Below the pieces are notes generated by a model that saw only the letters and a program-made list of their open reading frames with translations, made no database searches and was not told the DNA's origin. From Cyclobacteriaceae bacterium (GTDB lineage: Bacteria; Bacteroidota; Bacteroidia; Cytophagales; Cyclobacteriaceae): DNA of 50,005 nucleotides. The stretch spans positions 1 through 50,005 of the forward strand of contig JAHBUB010000028.1 in assembly GCA_019638285.1 (NCBI GenBank), read 5' to 3'. Positions 36,569-43,824 of this stretch are shown in pieces. Numbering within the stretch: the first letter of the stretch is position 1; each line of letters begins with the position of its first letter. A program made the translations under genes and the position numbers.

Positions 36569-37435
36569 TTAGTTTATGTCTATGGGTGTAAACGAGATAT
36601 TATCAGTTGCTTTTTTTTGGGCCAATATATTGACGCCATTTCGCAATAATTGAAGGATTCTTGGGTATCCGCCCGTTGTTTGGCAATCCTTCATTAAGGC
36701 GATTAGGTTTCCTGATGGAGTGAGTTGGATCGTTCCAGGCAGAACAGCCGATGTAAGCATATTGTAATCGGAGGGATATTGAAAGGCGTTGCCTTCTAGC
36801 CGGTAACCCATTCTGTTGTTGTCGTTGCTAACCGATAGAATTGTATTAAAAATGATTTCTTTTTCTTTGGGATTAAGTAGGTCAAACTCAGGGCCTTTGG
36901 TGCATACGAGGTTGATGGATGAAAAATGCGATTCCTCTACTTTTACAGAAGAGAAATGATTTTCATGATTATTGTAATGCTTAATCTGAAATTGGTCGCC
37001 ACTTTTAATAGTACTGTCTGATGTTACCGGGGCAAAGCACGACCGACTGTTCAAAATACGCTCTGTTTGAAACCCACCTTTTACGGCAAGGTAACATCGA
37101 AGTCCGTACCTCAATGAACCAAAGGAGAGCAGGTCGCCTTGGTTCACAACAATTGCTTTATTGAGTGGAATGGTGACTCCATTTAATTGTGGTGAAATAT
37201 CCGCTCCTGAAATTACAATTTGGGTAGGGACGGAAAATAATAATTTAGGCCCTGTCATGGTTATCTCCATTAGCGCAGACTCCAGAGGGTTGTTCAATAA
37301 GTGATTGGCCAACGAGGCACTCTGCTCATCCATTACTCCGGAAACTGGCACACCGTATTTCCGAAAACCAAATCTTCCGCGATCCTGAATGGAAGAGTAA
37401 AGTCCGGGAGATATCACTTCAACAAATCCAGTCAT
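36569..37435 (-). CDS. pxpC: 5-oxoprolinase subunit PxpC (KipA-like)
   Basis: PxpC (biotin-dependent carboxyltransferase-like family, KipA in Bacillus) is part of the prokaryotic ATP-dependent 5-oxoprolinase PxpABC, which opens 5-oxoproline to glutamate. Family marks are VISPGLYSSIQDRGRFGFRKYGVPVSGVMD near the start, ISGADISPQLNG, GLRCYLAVKGGF, NRMGYRLEG and the late SAVLPGTIQLTPSGNLIALMKDCQTTGGYPRI. The 288-residue length is normal. ATG at 37435 overlaps the pxpB stop (ATGA). With PxpB and the fused PxpA next to it, the set is complete. Confidence 0.93.
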   Translation of the reverse strand: MTGFVEVISPGLYSSIQDRGRFGFRKYGVPVSGVMDEQSASLANHLLNNPLESALMEITMTGPKLLFSVPTQIVISGADISPQLNGVTIPLNKAIVVNQGDLLSFGSLRYGLRCYLAVKGGFQTERILNSRSCFAPVTSDSTIKSGDQFQIKHYNNHENHFSSVKVEESHFSSINLVCTKGPEFDLLNPKEKEIIFNTILSVSNDNNRMGYRLEGNAFQYPSDYNMLTSAVLPGTIQLTPSGNLIALMKDCQTTGGYPRILQLLRNGVNILAQKKATDNISFTPIDIN

Positions 37436-38169
37436 TCTGATTTGGATTCAATTTTAAATATTCCAAGTTCAACTTCACGTAAGATTTTCTGATGCTCCTT
37501 TTTATCAATTGGATAAAATTGCAACAAGTCTCCGGCACGTGCAAAACAGGGGGGGGTGAGTTTTGGATCAAAAAATAGTAATGGGCTATTACCAATAATA
37601 TTCCACCCACCTGGACTTTCAGAGGGGTAAACACCGGTTTGTTGTCCACCAATTGCCACGGCTCCCTTTTTGATTCTAAGGCGTGGTGTTGATTTTCTTG
37701 GTGTGTGGATAGGTTTTGGCAAACCACCCAGGTATAGGAAGCCAGGAAGAAAACCAGTGAAGTAGACAGTGTATTCGGCCATACAATGGATAGCTATAAT
37801 TTCCTCAACAGAGCGCTTATTCTGATTGGCGACATCATCCAGATCTATTCCAAATTCTTTATCATAGCACACTGGGATTTTCCAGGTATTCCTTTTTCTC
37901 TCTATAAGAAGAAACTTTAATTGATAAAGGCGTTGCGTTTTTTCCTTTATTTCTTTAAAGGATATAATATCAGATTGAAAAATAACAGTTAATGAATTGT
38001 AAGCATTTACAGTTTCTATCAGCACATCACACAGTTCGTTCTCAATGCTGGATTGGAATTGTAAAACGTCAACTAGAATAGCTTGGTCAATCTCACCCGG
38101 CCATTCAATAAGGAGTGTGGACTCGCCAAAAGCCTTGTAAATAAGTGGGTATGAATTCAAGTTATTCAA
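37432..38169 (-). CDS. pxpB: 5-oxoprolinase subunit PxpB (KipI-like)
   Basis: PxpB/KipI is the second allophanate-hydrolase-like subunit of 5-oxoprolinase. In 245 residues it has YKAFGESTLLIEWPG, VNAYNSLTVIF, IPVCYDKEFGIDLDDVA, YTVYFTGFLPGFLYLGGLP, PRLRIKKGAVAIGGQQTGVYPSESPGGWNIIG and PPCFARAGDLLQF, in the family order. There is no ATG near the start. TTG at 38169 is the first codon after an in-frame stop, and it overlaps the end of the transporter-PxpA gene by eight bases; a second TTG lies at 38160. Both ends overlap neighbours, so the three genes are translated as a unit. Confidence 0.92.
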   Translation of the reverse strand: MNNLNSYPLIYKAFGESTLLIEWPGEIDQAILVDVLQFQSSIENELCDVLIETVNAYNSLTVIFQSDIISFKEIKEKTQRLYQLKFLLIERKRNTWKIPVCYDKEFGIDLDDVANQNKRSVEEIIAIHCMAEYTVYFTGFLPGFLYLGGLPKPIHTPRKSTPRLRIKKGAVAIGGQQTGVYPSESPGGWNIIGNSPLLFFDPKLTPPCFARAGDLLQFYPIDKKEHQKILREVELGIFKIESKSE

Positions 38170-40114
38170 TACTTACATTATAATTTTTTAGATTCTTAGC
38201 TAACTGAGAGAGAATTTCTTCTGCATGAGGATTGTCGCCATGAACACATATTGTGCCTGCTTCAATGGTGACAAGATTCCCATTGATTGTCTTTACCTTT
38301 TTTTCTTTGATCATTCGAATGACATGATCGGTTATCTGATCAGTATTCTCTAATACTGCATTGTCCAATTTTCGTGAAACCAAGGTGAGATCATCATTGT
38401 AGTTTCGGTCTGCAAAGGCTTCGTACCTAATGGGCTGCTTTCGCTCTATGGCTTTTTTCGCTATCACCGATCCGTAGGGAACGTATAGAATCAACTCCTT
38501 ATTAAATGGAGCCATGGCGTCTAACACTGCTTCTGCGGTGCTATCATTTACAGCCGCCATATTGTACAGGGCTCCATGCGGTTTTACATGACTTAGCTTT
38601 CCACCCACTTCTTCAGTTAAAATTTTCAGCCGCATAATTTGCGCTATAATAATTGTGGTCAGTTCATTATTGGGAAGATTCATTTCAGTGCGACCAAAGT
38701 TTTCTTGATCGGGGAATGATGGATGAGCCCCTATATTCACATTGTTTTCTAGGGCGAGGTGTATTGCTTTCCGCATCGTATTATCGTCTCCGGCATGACC
38801 GCCACAAGCAATGTTACAAGAACTGAGGTAAGGCATTAATTGAGCATCATTGCCAATACCCTCTCCTAAATCACAATTAATGTCAATTGAATAAGTCATA
38901 TTCTTATTGCTGTTGATTACCTGAACTATACTTCTTAGCCCCAGTACGATTGATAAGATAAAGATGATGATCCCAACAGAATTTTGAAACCTTGTATTAC
39001 GGTTTTTACCTAAAACGGATTCTTTATTCATGATCCATAGCAGGATACCAACAATAATGGGTAAAGCAGCGCCATTGGCTATCTGAGCAAACTGAATAAT
39101 TTCTATGGGATTGATCCCAAGAGATGAAAACAGCACCCCAAGAAATAGAACAAACATCCACGCCATTCGGAATTTGAAACTCTTCAGATTGCCATCCCAT
39201 CCAAGGCATCCATTGGCCACGTATGCCGCAGCCAACGGTGCGGTGATGGCGGAGGTGATGCCTGCGGAAAACAATCCTACACTTAAAAAATATTTCGCAA
39301 AACTTCCGAAGAGTGGCTCTAGTCCTTTGGCCAGATCAGTGGCACTGGTAACGGTGGCGATATTAGCAGAGGCGGCAGAGACGATGATGGCCATTGAAAC
39401 CAGTCCGCCAAATGCGACAGATATAATCGTATCTTTTTTTGCATAGTGCAAATCACCCTGTGTTTTCCATTTTTCTTTTACCAATGAGGCATGAAGAAAT
39501 AAATTGTAAGGCACCACAGTTGTGCCAATGAGTCCAACGATAGTAAATAAATTGCTTTCACTAACAGACGGAACAAACATCCCTTTTACGACTGAAAGCA
39601 GGTTGGGTTTTGTAAGTATGGCGGTGATCACGAAAGCAATACTCATCAGGATGACCAGTGAAACGAGTGTACGCTCCAGGATTTTATAATTGCCCAGGTA
39701 GAGTAATATAAAAGCAAAGACACCTATGACGAGGCTTAGGTATTTTAAAATATTTGGATTTGAAATATTAAATAATGTTTCAAGACCTAATCTGCTTCCG
39801 CTGATGTTACCGGCTTCATACACAGCATTTCCGATAACGATGGCAAAGAGGATCAAAGCGACAATGATGTATTTGATGACTGGACTTTGAATCTCCTGCC
39901 GAATAACGTCAGACAAGCCCTTTCTCGTAATAATGCCTAATCGTGCGGCCATCTCTTGCAGCACGATGGTAGCGATGGTAGATAACACCATAGCCCACAG
40001 GAGATCATAACCGAAACGGACACCAGCAATGGTGCAAACGGTGACCGTACCCGGACCAATAAAGGCTGCAGCTACTAAAGCTCCAGGCCCTGAATTCCTA
40101 AACCATTTACGCAT
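38162..40114 (-). CDS. pxpA: Nramp-like transporter fused to 5-oxoprolinase subunit PxpA
   Basis: One 650-residue open frame holds two proteins that are normally separate. Residues 1-395 are an Nramp-family transporter with about eleven helices; the first has GPGALVAAAFIGPGT and the sixth GTTVVPYNLFLH. The metal-site DPGN and MPH of true Nramp proteins are replaced by GPGT (residues 20-23) and VPY (201-203), so divalent metal transport is doubtful. Residues 406-650 are a full LamB/YcsF (PxpA) domain, starting MTYSIDINCDLGEG and keeping IACGGHAGD, IGAHPSFPD, SHVKPHGALYN and HGDNPHA. PxpA's own start methionine is kept at the joint (ATG at 38899). ATG 40114 is preferred over a GTG at 40120. In Bacillus, ycsF lies next to the Nramp-like ycsG, so the fusion joins known neighbours. 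Confidence 0.9.
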   Translation of the reverse strand: MRKWFRNSGPGALVAAAFIGPGTVTVCTIAGVRFGYDLLWAMVLSTIATIVLQEMAARLGIITRKGLSDVIRQEIQSPVIKYIIVALILFAIVIGNAVYEAGNISGSRLGLETLFNISNPNILKYLSLVIGVFAFILLYLGNYKILERTLVSLVILMSIAFVITAILTKPNLLSVVKGMFVPSVSESNLFTIVGLIGTTVVPYNLFLHASLVKEKWKTQGDLHYAKKDTIISVAFGGLVSMAIIVSAASANIATVTSATDLAKGLEPLFGSFAKYFLSVGLFSAGITSAITAPLAAAYVANGCLGWDGNLKSFKFRMAWMFVLFLGVLFSSLGINPIEIIQFAQIANGAALPIIVGILLWIMNKESVLGKNRNTRFQNSVGIIIFILSIVLGLRSIVQVINSNKNMTYSIDINCDLGEGIGNDAQLMPYLSSCNIACGGHAGDDNTMRKAIHLALENNVNIGAHPSFPDQENFGRTEMNLPNNELTTIIIAQIMRLKILTEEVGGKLSHVKPHGALYNMAAVNDSTAEAVLDAMAPFNKELILYVPYGSVIAKKAIERKQPIRYEAFADRNYNDDLTLVSRKLDNAVLENTDQITDHVIRMIKEKKVKTINGNLVTIEAGTICVHGDNPHAEEILSQLAKNLKNYNVSIE

Positions 40115-40168: not shown

Positions 40169-41125
40169 TTACCCTTTTGTTTTTTGGTAAATGAGTTTAG
40201 CAATCTGAATGTCTTGAATGGCCACTCCAGTGAGATCAGCAATTGATATCTCGGAGTCATTTTTCCTTTTTTGACCCGTGGAAATAAGAGTGCCTAGTTC
40301 TGTAATCTGATCTTCCTTAATGATGCCTTGGTGAACAGGATGAAAAATATCACCATGATCCATGCATTGTGATTTACTATCGGCTATAATAAGCGATGCT
40401 TTTCCAAATAAACTGGCTTCTAACTCTTGCTTACCCGGTGTATCGGCACCCACAGCGGTGATGTGGGTTCCGGGCTGAATTTCTTTCGCCAAAAGAAGTG
40501 GCTTTTTAGAGGGAGTAGTTGTAACGATATAATTACAATGTTTGGCTAATTCAGTTATATTTTTTGTTGTATTGATATCAAAGCCGGCTAACATTGGATC
40601 CTTTTTATAATCATTTAGTTTGTCATCACTCCTGCCCCAAACGATTACATTCCTGCAATCAATTACAGATTTTAGAAACTTGAGTTGAAGTCTGGCTTGA
40701 ATTCCGGTACCGACAATTCCAATCCTGTTTATTTGTGCAGGCGCAAGGTGTTTGGCTACTACTGCTCCTGCTAATGCGGTTCGAATATCAGTGAGATGGC
40801 CCTCATCCAAAAGTATAGAAAGCAGTTTGCCTGTCTTTTGGCTGAACACCAACATTAACCCATTGCTGGAACTTAGTCCTATTTTAGGATTATCATAAAA
40901 GCCGGATGCCAATTTGATTACATAGTAGTCATCTTCCTTGATGTAACCGTATTTAATATGCAGGTCTCCCGGAGGATTGATAAAAGGAAGATGTCCTACT
41001 GGAGGAACTACCACGTCTTCCTTTGAGTAACTGACAAAACCATCTTCAATGATTTGAATTAGTTCTGAGTCAGCGCATGAACTCAGAGATGATTTTATTT
41101 TATCAAGTGAAATAATACTAGACAT
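40169..41125 (-). CDS. Ornithine cyclodeaminase/mu-crystallin family protein
   Basis: A 318-residue NAD(P)-binding enzyme of the ornithine cyclodeaminase/mu-crystallin family. Ornithine cyclodeaminase makes proline and ammonia from ornithine; relatives are ketimine reductases, alanine dehydrogenases or EutC. Seen are the substrate lysine region HIKYGYIKEDDYYVIKLASGFYDN, DEGHLTDIRTALAGAVVAKHLAP, the Rossmann motif GIVGTGIQARLQL and GTHITAVGADTPGKQELE. ATG 41125 is preferred; a GTG three bases upstream is in frame. The start overlaps the dehydratase stop by eight bases. It is followed after 54 bases by the transporter-PxpA gene. True ornithine activity is not certain. Confidence 0.88.
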   Translation of the reverse strand: MSSIISLDKIKSSLSSCADSELIQIIEDGFVSYSKEDVVVPPVGHLPFINPPGDLHIKYGYIKEDDYYVIKLASGFYDNPKIGLSSSNGLMLVFSQKTGKLLSILLDEGHLTDIRTALAGAVVAKHLAPAQINRIGIVGTGIQARLQLKFLKSVIDCRNVIVWGRSDDKLNDYKKDPMLAGFDINTTKNITELAKHCNYIVTTTPSKKPLLLAKEIQPGTHITAVGADTPGKQELEASLFGKASLIIADSKSQCMDHGDIFHPVHQGIIKEDQITELGTLISTGQKRKNDSEISIADLTGVAIQDIQIAKLIYQKTKG

Positions 41126-42074
41126 CACAAACTACCCTTTTAAGAACTGCCTCACTTACATTACTGCCGCAAATGACAGCAGCCACTTTCTTGCCTTTGA
41201 GTTTTTCTTTTTGTTTAAGTATTGCAGCTACCGCCACTCCGGCCGATCCTTCAATAACTTGATGGTGATGTTTTAATACAAATCGCATCGCACTTAAAAT
41301 CTCTTCTTCTGAAGTAAGAACGTAGTCATCTATCAGGTCCCTACACAAATCAAAGGTGATAGTGTCATGGTCTATGCCACCGGCAGTTCCATCAGAGAGG
41401 GTAGGCTGTTCTGGCACGTCTATGACTTTCCCGGCTTTGATACATTCGTACATCACAGGGGCATTGGCCGGTAAGCATCCGATTATTTGAATGGTGGGGT
41501 TCACTGATTTAAGATATGCTGCAATTCCAGCAATCAAACCGCCACCTCCAATCGATACAAAAACCGCATCTAGTTCTGGTAATTGCCGGTAGAGTTCTAC
41601 TCCAATTGTACCCTGACCTGCTATTACATCTTCATCATTGTAGGGAGAGACATAAACCTGATTTGTTTCCTTCGCATATTTTCGTGCATACACTTCGGTG
41701 ACTTCACCACTATCTCCATGAAACTCTATTGCGATACCTCTTTGCTTGATGGCTTCTACTTTGGCAGCCGATGCTTTGGTGGGAAGAAAGATGGTGCCTT
41801 CTTTTCCTGTTGCTTTTAAGGCGTTTGCTACTCCAAGTCCATGGTTACCTGTGGAGGCAGTGATGATTTTTCTTTTGTCGTCTTTTAGAGAAAGAATTTT
41901 GTTCATCGATCCCCTGGCTTTGAAAGATCCTGTGATCTGTAAGTTTTCCAGTTTTAGATATACCTCACAACTGGTATCGGCAGATAATGGATAAGAATAT
42001 TCTAAAGGAGTTTCTCGAATAAACGAAGAAATAGTTTGATGTGCTTCCAAAACTTTATCTGATAATTTTTTCAT
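41118..42074 (-). CDS. Threonine/serine dehydratase-like PLP enzyme
   Basis: A 318-residue fold-type II PLP enzyme of the threonine dehydratase group without the regulatory ACT-like domain. The PLP lysine is Lys52 in TGSFKARG; the phosphate loop is SIGGGGLIAG; STGNHGLGVANA binds the substrate carboxylate; the cofactor ring is met by VICGSN near the end. The likely reaction is deamination of threonine or serine, but the family also has serine racemase, hydroxyaspartate dehydratase and EutB. It overlaps the ornithine-cyclodeaminase-like gene, the same pairing seen in ectoine-use loci (EutB/EutC). It starts 16 bases after the fusion deacetylase gene. Confidence 0.88.
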   Translation of the reverse strand: MKKLSDKVLEAHQTISSFIRETPLEYSYPLSADTSCEVYLKLENLQITGSFKARGSMNKILSLKDDKRKIITASTGNHGLGVANALKATGKEGTIFLPTKASAAKVEAIKQRGIAIEFHGDSGEVTEVYARKYAKETNQVYVSPYNDEDVIAGQGTIGVELYRQLPELDAVFVSIGGGGLIAGIAAYLKSVNPTIQIIGCLPANAPVMYECIKAGKVIDVPEQPTLSDGTAGGIDHDTITFDLCRDLIDDYVLTSEEEILSAMRFVLKHHHQVIEGSAGVAVAAILKQKEKLKGKKVAAVICGSNVSEAVLKRVVCDV

Positions 42075-42090
42075 AGAACGTTTCTAATAT

Positions 42091-43824
42091 TTACATATAA
42101 TATCCTTCCCACAATCCTTCAAAGAAGTGGCGGGCATTAATGCCAAGGTCCCGGTTTTTATATCCTCCCTCCTGAACGATAAGCGTTGGTAAATTAAGCT
42201 TTGCCAAAATTTTTCCGTTTTCTACAAAATCTTGAGAAGACAGCCTCCAGGTTCCGGTAGGATCACCTTGTGCGGTGTCCAGACCAAGCGCAATGATTAA
42301 ATAAGTAGGATTGTATTTTTTGATTTCATCAATGGCGAGCGCCAATGCTTTTCGATATTGTTTACCATCGGTTCCTTTTTTTAAAGGAATGTTCAGGTTG
42401 TAACCATCACCTTCATTCAACCCACGTTCATCCGCAAAACCAGTAAAGTTGGGATAGGCATATAATGGATCGCCATGAATGGAGATAGTGTAAACATCAT
42501 TGCGTTCATAAAAAATATTTTGCTGCCCATTGCCATGATGGTAATCGATATCAAGAATAACCACTTTGCCTTTTTTGCTGAGGTAGTTAGCAGCTACTGC
42601 ATTAGAATTTAAGTAGCAAAATCCTCCAAAATATTTCCGTTCAGCGTGATGACCGGGCGGGCGCACGAGCGCATAGGCCATCTGCCTGCCCTGGAGCACC
42701 TGATCAGCCGCAGTAAGTGCACAATTGACGGCCGCACGGGCGGCTTTGTAAACATTGACATGGATAGGAGTGGTGCTGTCAATACAATAATAGCCGATCT
42801 GATGCTCTGGTGAGAGAGGGATGCGTTGGGAAAATCTTTTAGGAAAAATTTCAGGATAAAGAATAGCGCCATCCTTTGCAGCAGCACAAACTTTTTTAAG
42901 AAAACTGACAAACTCAGGATGATGAACCTCTTCCACCCAACTATCGGGATAAGATTTGGAGGCTGCGTTTTCGAAGATATTAACCTTTTCAAGTTCCTTC
43001 AATATCGACTTGACCCTTACCGGAGATTCCAAATATCCTTTGTCTCTAACGTGATGGATGATGTGACCTTCACTTATAACCAACCCGATTTTCTTGTCAG
43101 AAGGGATCTTCTTTTTTATTTCTATATACTTCTCCTTTTTAACATATCGCTTCTCTCTTAACAATAAGGAGGTTCCTTTTATGGAGTCAATAACTTTCTT
43201 AATATATTCCGGAGAACATTTTCCGCCTTGTTTATTCTCCAGGATAGCCCTGATGATTCGCCTTCCATCAGATGCTTTGAGTTCTGGTTTTTCACCGGGC
43301 CCTTCAAAGACCAAATGAAAAATGGAGTTGTCGTTCCGTGGGAGCTCGTATTGAGTGCCTATTATTGGACGAGCACCATATCGCTCATAGAACTTTAGCC
43401 TTGCAATATTTTGTTTCCTTTCAGTTTCATTGAGACATAGCTCAGGTTCATCGGGAAGGCAATCAAAAAATATTCCGATGACATTATTTGTAGCGGCTTC
43501 TTCACGCAACCTTTCATACAATGCCCCACCAATACCCCCACTGCTTCTTTGTTGGTGAGAAGCTATATAATCAAGAAAGTAAAATTTTTCCTTTGGAAAG
43601 TAAGAGGCAATAACAAGACCTAATACTTTTTTATTGCGTGCCTCAGCTACGAGGATAACATAACGAAAATGTACCGCCAATGGATTTTTGGCAGCAGCAA
43701 AGATATCATCTGCTTCTGAAGGAGTTAGGTGAGGGAACTGAGCAACCAGTATTTCTTTGCATTGGACCAATGCATTTTGATTAACTGGATTATTGTGATC
43801 ATAAATTCTGCGAATTGCAATCAT
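42091..43824 (-). CDS. GNAT acetyltransferase fused to acetylpolyamine-type deacetylase
   Basis: A 577-residue protein with two opposing domains. Residues 1-170 form a GNAT acetyltransferase: FYFLDYIASHQQRSSGGIGGALYERL carries the acetyl-CoA loop (RSSGGIGG, 93-100), and FYERYGARPI the last strand. After a basic linker (180-245), residues 247-577 form a histone-deacetylase-fold enzyme closest to acetylpolyamine amidohydrolase. It has RPPGHHAERKYFGGFCYLNS with the His392/His393 pair, zinc ligands Asp427 and His429 in DIDYHHGNGQ and Asp516 in GLDTAQGDP, and Tyr555 in QEGGY. All key deacetylase residues are present. One would expect deacetylation of acetylpolyamines or acetylated amino acids in the cytoplasm. 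It starts 61 bases after the aminopeptidase gene and heads the overlapping catabolic block. Confidence 0.9.
   Translation of the reverse strand: MIAIRRIYDHNNPVNQNALVQCKEILVAQFPHLTPSEADDIFAAAKNPLAVHFRYVILVAEARNKKVLGLVIASYFPKEKFYFLDYIASHQQRSSGGIGGALYERLREEAATNNVIGIFFDCLPDEPELCLNETERKQNIARLKFYERYGARPIIGTQYELPRNDNSIFHLVFEGPGEKPELKASDGRRIIRAILENKQGGKCSPEYIKKVIDSIKGTSLLLREKRYVKKEKYIEIKKKIPSDKKIGLVISEGHIIHHVRDKGYLESPVRVKSILKELEKVNIFENAASKSYPDSWVEEVHHPEFVSFLKKVCAAAKDGAILYPEIFPKRFSQRIPLSPEHQIGYYCIDSTTPIHVNVYKAARAAVNCALTAADQVLQGRQMAYALVRPPGHHAERKYFGGFCYLNSNAVAANYLSKKGKVVILDIDYHHGNGQQNIFYERNDVYTISIHGDPLYAYPNFTGFADERGLNEGDGYNLNIPLKKGTDGKQYRKALALAIDEIKKYNPTYLIIALGLDTAQGDPTGTWRLSSQDFVENGKILAKLNLPTLIVQEGGYKNRDLGINARHFFEGLWEGYYM

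Follow-up and report, generated by a model that had tools for sequence, protein, structure and literature searches.

An in-frame fusion of an NRAMP-fold transporter with the 5-oxoprolinase subunit PxpA in Cyclobacteriaceae

Among the closest described counterparts of the locus studied here is pxpTABC of Corynebacterium glutamicum, where the gene for an NRAMP-like secondary transporter is reported to lie directly before pxpA, followed by pxpB and pxpC, and where both transporter and enzyme were required for growth on 5-oxoproline (PMC13274462). Growth tests from the same source support 5-oxoproline uptake by the YcsG/PxpT transporters, while YcsG of Bacillus subtilis has been reported as a manganese importer (PMC10448178). 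Here we describe a locus from a Cyclobacteriaceae bacterium (assembly GCA_019638285.1, contig JAHBUB010000028.1, positions 1 to 50,005 of the forward strand; this whole stretch of 50,005 nucleotides is called the window) in which transporter and PxpA share one reading frame. The minus-strand frame at 38162-40114 is open throughout and encodes 650 residues in our open-frame analysis, the first 405 forming an NRAMP-fold transporter and the last 245 PxpA. We favour, with a probability of about one half, the explanation that this is a nested gene yielding free PxpA, the long protein being either a by-product or a second form.

One open frame shared by transporter and PxpA

The frame could start at ATG 40114, which aligns with relatives, or at GTG 40120, and its stop codon is 38162-38164 on the minus strand. 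Counted from the GTG, residues 30-376 match the Pfam Nramp model (300.4 bits; cut-off 29.8) and residues 412-644 match LamB_YcsF (288.6 bits; cut-off 22). An in-frame fusion of the two had been proposed in a first-pass annotation of this DNA, and a single frame carrying both domains above cut-off bears that out. The same annotation placed the start methionine of PxpA at the joint; indeed, ATG 38899 (residue 406 counted from ATG 40114) is the first PxpA codon. The PxpA domain passes NF003814 (272 vs 226) and NF003816 (230.3 vs 213) and falls below the cut-offs of three narrower PxpA models. Across 28 aligned rows, one of them the window, 34 columns are invariant, all within PxpA, and the conserved family residues are kept. 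PF03746 has a single match in the whole genome (99.39% complete, 85 contigs), and that match is in the fused frame.

The same fusion is present in three further assemblies, L017 (UBA2371), L018 (HKST-UBA63) and L022 (UBA2338). All four genes have 650 codons with zero indels and run open through the joint (near 38900 in the window), so that an assembly error is ruled out. The fused sequences group together both in the NRAMP tree (support 83/81) and in the PxpA tree (99/97), and the nearest unfused relative in the trees is L024, whose transporter is 73% identical.

Beyond these species the architecture appears to be rare. A pattern scan of genome contigs, which detects close relatives only, gave nine relatives, three of them fused at full length. 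Full-length, stop-free fusions were found in 3 of 62 whole genomes of the genus, in 3 of 390 genomes sampled from the family (the same three; this sample also takes in members of the genus), and in 1 of 395 from the phylum, namely the window itself; in the family and phylum samples at most three candidates were scored per genome, and all genome samples were from Bacteroidota. In a PF03746 search of 390 genomes of the order, only the window's frame exceeds 600 residues among the matches listed. Phyla outside Bacteroidota were covered through the pattern scan for close relatives and through plasmids and phages: the fusion was not found in plasmids, where only 1 of 1070 matching records had a place covering at least 80% of the query, with the two genes separate there, or in phage records (0 of 15). 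Other long frames of the family have a transporter of 410-428 residues (L154, L155, L157, L158) or are extended upstream only (L156, L159), and none is joined to pxpA. A widespread architecture is thus unsupported, with none found beyond these species in the Bacteroidota genomes sampled, and a literature search with partial coverage found no paper on an NRAMP-PxpA fusion. The fusion of transporter and PxpA is therefore real, lasting and narrowly distributed.

How the two frames came to be joined can be approached from the unfused relatives, in which the end of the transporter gene and the start of pxpA mostly lie only a few bases apart. The examined loci hold 36 distinct transporter/pxpA pairs: 4 are fused, 6 share a frame with one or two stops between them, and 26 are in different frames (among these is L093, with a gap of 250 bases). 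In L024, the transporter stops one residue past the QVI at the end of transmembrane helix (TM) 11, in a frame different from that of its pxpA, whereas the fused genes continue for five further codons after QVI before the PxpA methionine. Since unfused pairs mostly touch or are separated by stops in one frame, fusion is only a small step away, and we infer that a small indel joined the two frames. The most economical view is that this conserved fusion arose a single time, in a single clade of Cyclobacteriaceae-type Bacteroidota, within a putative 5-oxoproline utilisation operon. As a separate observation, transporter and pxpA lie in one frame with one or two stops between them in L019, L020, L085-L088 and L158, all from Bacteroidota. 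Frequent stop read-through between unfused genes was also considered and rejected, as 6 one-frame pairs among 32 unfused is no excess over one in three.

Probable products of the fused frame and the predicted place of PxpA

Both parts of the fusion are under purifying selection, and synonymous divergence among the four fused species is near-saturated. Over the eight codons ahead of ATG406, four synonymous changes and no others separate the window from L017, while two synonymous changes and one other separate L018 from L022; six of these seven differences fall at third positions. Neutral simulations on the tree, using four-fold sites, reached the observed amino-acid identity of this linker in 0 of 20,000 runs at both the full rate and 0.6 of it, and in 0.005% at a rate of 0.4 (0.085% for the last six codons alone), in a test resting on four sequences and few sites. 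Given this protein-level conservation of the linker, translation of the transporter frame probably continues through the joint. The open linker was rejected as proof of selection, its neutral P being 0.28-0.48.

The first-pass annotation had also suggested that the cell could make both the fusion and free PxpA, and the features of the internal start agree with this. The PxpA ATG is kept in all four fused genes. A start-context model, built on 450 kb of the same genome, of which the window is a part, with positive starts inferred from open frames, separated likely starts from internal ATGs with an area under the curve of 0.87-0.91. By this model ATG406 outscores 95.6-96.7% of internal ATGs and is the top of 16 tested in the gene, and the three orthologous ATGs outscore 90.3-98.2%. 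An earlier model based on 36 starts gave 93, 94, 91 and 79%. Bacteroidetes are reported to be largely without Shine-Dalgarno signals and to show instead a drop in guanine-plus-cytosine content before starts (PMC3155529); such a drop is seen in the 30 bases before the PxpA ATG (0.23-0.37, vs 0.41-0.42 gene-wide), although membrane-helix codons may also lower this value. Retention of the ATG in all four genes together with its start-like context makes it likely that free cytosolic PxpA is also made.

Where the fused PxpA lies depends on the transporter. Eleven membrane helices had been noted from the sequence, and this count held up: the fusion has eleven hydrophobic peaks, none past residue 400, and its fold model has eleven TM helices, the last at 375-404, and aligns to DraNramp from 8 to 402, as expected of an eleven-helix NRAMP fold (SLC11/APC). 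Lysines and arginines are more numerous on the N-terminal side (20 vs 7; 20:7, 20:7 and 19:8 in the other fused genes). PxpA, PxpB and PxpC show no hydrophobic segment in their hydrophobicity profiles. E. coli (Escherichia coli) MntH, with eleven helices, is reported to have a periplasmic C-terminus, which a twelfth helix would return inside (PMC4659628), and a twelve-helix NRAMP family member is known (PMC5230734). The same genome offers a natural control: its MntH has hydrophobic peaks at 409-427 and then, extra, at 441-459, before a Usp domain at 494-627, whereas the fusion has no extra helix between transporter and soluble domain. Charge pattern, helix count and homologues thus predict an N-in/C-out layout. 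There is no ATP in the periplasm. The predicted layout would place the fused PxpA there, apart from ATP, PxpB and PxpC, and this goes against the suggestion of the first-pass annotation that the transported compound is handed over to PxpABC at the membrane.

These observations are best accommodated if one gene works as two nested genes. The transporter would import 5-oxoproline or a similar lactam. Ribosomes starting at 40114 would make the long polypeptide, with its C-terminal PxpA predicted outside the membrane, and ribosomes starting at ATG 38899 would make free cytosolic PxpA. Free PxpA would join PxpB and PxpC and open 5-oxoproline with ATP, and the long polypeptide would be either a by-product or a further form. 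Several points speak against this explanation. First, the conserved linker points to selection on the long protein itself, and a PxpA wasted in the periplasm would leave this unexplained; an open linker, by itself, is unsurprising under neutrality. Second, the earlier start model ranked the ATG of L022 above only 79% of internal ATGs, the synonymous sites near ATG406 show no clear conservation, and retention of the methionine in four of four genes may be due to chance.

In a rival reading, along the lines of the first-pass annotation, the fusion would be the working unit, with a cytoplasmic C-terminus despite the family rule and with PxpA lying at the transporter's inner opening, where PxpB and PxpC would join it. 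The linker is conserved as protein and stop-free between the parts in four species, and the sole pxpA found in the genome lies within the fusion. A further point in favour comes from modelling. A first fold model gave PxpA residues 406-439 a predicted local distance difference test (pLDDT) score below 50, probably from misaligned short rows, whereas the model from a second alignment had a confident PxpA fold from strand 408-416 on, directly past TM11, next to a poorly modelled transporter (mean pLDDT 62). Yet eleven helices and the charge bias predict C-out, the reported family precedent for eleven helices is likewise C-out (PMC4659628), in the genome's MntH one more hydrophobic peak precedes the soluble domain, and the PxpA start is kept and start-like. 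We therefore regard a working unit as unlikely. A version under selection, in which PxpA is cytoplasmic despite eleven helices (through dual or changed topology) and free PxpA is made too, giving a membrane-tied and a free pool with substrate passed on at entry, is likewise doubtful.

Alternatively, the frames of two abutting genes may have been merged by neutral accident, through an indel close to where they met, with the separate products alone mattering and the extension being tolerated. Among the 32 distinct unfused adjacent pairs, 26 are in different frames, mostly with ends that touch or overlap (L093 again being the one with the 250-base gap), and 6 share a frame, which leaves fusion only a small step away, and the open linker is by itself compatible with neutrality (P 0.28-0.48). 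However, the amino acids of the linker are conserved beyond the neutral simulation, and the fusion persists in four species whose synonymous divergence is near saturation; we consider a neutral origin of this kind improbable.

Putative substrate of the transporter

In DraNramp, an Asp and an Asn of TM1 and a Met of TM6 are reported to act as metal ligands (PMC8806188). The corresponding residues of the fusion are Gly, Thr and Val (GPGT and VPY), so that the DPGN/MPH ligands of divalent-metal NRAMP/MntH proteins are missing, and GPGT is common to all the other members of the same transporter clade in the alignment. The MntH/Nramp subfamily models NF001923 (166.6 vs 430) and TIGR01197 (118 vs 272.5) are missed. 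The genome's MntH passes both of these as well as NF037982, and its gene adjoins that of an iron-dependent-repressor-family regulator.

The first-pass annotation had likened the transporter to YcsG. An NRAMP-like fold encoded next to pxpA is indeed present, but a strict ycsG homologue is not: identity to the YcsG model 9a52_A is 21-22%, and the transporters at loci with a second NRAMP type beside pxpA are about 21-28% identical to that of the window. In Bacillus badius, the transporter gene next to pxpA has 62.8% identity to this second clade. The window's transporter thus falls outside the YcsG/PxpT clade, in a comparison that covered the YcsG model, these loci and B. badius. In its haloarchaeal relatives (L114, L120) the genes for hydantoinase/oxoprolinase A and B follow directly; a further relative, from a Pseudoalteromonas plasmid, lacks a hydantoinase/oxoprolinase-type neighbour. 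Given the fusion to PxpA, the absence of the metal ligands in this clade, and a lactam enzyme of a second kind beside the haloarchaeal relatives, we infer that the transporter would import 5-oxoproline or a similar lactam and not metal, judging by company and motif, not orthology.

Two points count against a lactam importer. The window's transporter passes NF037982, "Nramp family divalent metal transporter" (98.2 vs 50), and EcoDMT with its binding-site Met changed, or shifted towards a magnesium-type site, is reported to have still carried manganese (PMC8806188), so that the missing Met alone would not exclude metal transport. The transporter might then import manganese, as reported for B. 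subtilis YcsG (PMC10448178), and supply it to PxpA or the cell. With the site's Asp, Asn and Met all replaced, a typical MntH elsewhere in the genome beside its regulator, only 21-22% identity to YcsG, and lactam enzymes of two unrelated types as neighbours of the clade, we consider this very unlikely. Least likely of all is an external PxpA with a use of its own, such as catching substrate for the transporter, which would reconcile the predicted topology with linker conservation, but the residues shared with stand-alone PxpA are retained and a literature search of partial coverage found no such case.

Neighbouring genes and comparison with known systems

The fused gene had been placed in an operon with overlapping pxpB and pxpC, and this arrangement was recovered (Table 1): CT_C_D and CT_A_B domains adjoin the fused frame, as expected of PxpABC, with the PxpC models below cut-off. 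An aminopeptidase P gene also lies upstream in the same direction. Gene order around the fusion is common to the fused species, and the unfused relative L125 has it likewise, minus the cyclodeaminase, which was not found there; the L017/L124 contig stops inside the histone-deacetylase-fold gene. The histone-deacetylase-fold protein is 69-93% identical over its full length in L022, L018/L123 and L125, and truncated by the contig end in L017/L124. The cyclodeaminase/dehydratase pair (window 40169-42074), beside the pxp genes, gives sub-threshold matches to the EutC and EutB models.

Table 1. Features of the fused gene and its neighbours (window coordinates)
Feature	Position	Strand	Remarks
Fused frame, NRAMP-fold transporter and PxpA	38162..40114	-	Open frame; Pfam Nramp and LamB_YcsF; same fusion in L017, L018, L022
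Transporter part, 11 TM helices	38900..40114	-	GPGT/VPY replacing the DPGN/MPH metal motifs
Eight codons preceding the PxpA methionine (QVINSNKN)	38900..38923	-	Protein-level conservation in four species
PxpA ATG	38897..38899	-	Start-like context; kept in 4/4 fused genes
PxpA (LamB/YcsF) domain, 245 residues	38162..38899	-	Conserved residues retained
pxpB	37432..38169	-	TTG start at 38169; 5' end overlapping the 3' end of the fused frame; TIGR00370 184.5 bits vs cut-off 145.55
pxpC-like gene	36569..37435	-	Overlaps pxpB; CT_A_B; TIGR00724 and NF045499 scores under their NCBIfam cut-offs
Ornithine cyclodeaminase/mu-crystallin family gene	40169..41128	-	Upstream, same direction
Threonine/serine dehydratase family gene	41118..42074	-	Upstream, same direction
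Histone-deacetylase-fold protein	42091..43824	-	N-terminal GNAT match weak, below cut-off

The fusion can be set beside four kinds of system. The haloarchaeal loci L114 and L120 have a transporter 46-47% identical to that of the window, directly preceding a lactam-opening type of enzyme, but the enzyme family is unrelated and the genes are separate. On these plasmids (L114:4001-8892 and L120:4001-8940) the first two coding sequences abut with zero gap. The MntH-Usp protein of the same genome (L122) resembles the fusion in carrying a soluble domain C-terminal to an NRAMP part, and differs from it in its DPGN/MPH motifs and in the extra hydrophobic peak before the domain; it lies at L122:994-3544, and the adjoining iron-dependent-repressor-family gene has a FeoA domain. 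The unfused Bacteroidota pairs (L008/L024, L019-L021, L023 and most of L085-L113) share the transporter clade (48-73% identical), the gene order and mostly touching genes, whereas a stop codon terminates their transporter before pxpA. A conserved fusion at odds with the expected topology would point either to a transporter that breaks the topology rule or to a conserved nested gene.

Finally, pxpTABC of C. glutamicum has the same order of transporter, pxpA, pxpB and pxpC but in separate genes, and an identity of 50% to YcsG is reported for its transporter (PMC13274462), against 21-22% for that of the window. Whereas the substrate of the NRAMP-like protein of pxp operons is disputed between 5-oxoproline (PMC13274462) and manganese (PMC10448178), a natural fusion to PxpA, missing metal ligands in this clade and a haloarchaeal link to another type of lactam enzyme all favour a lactam.
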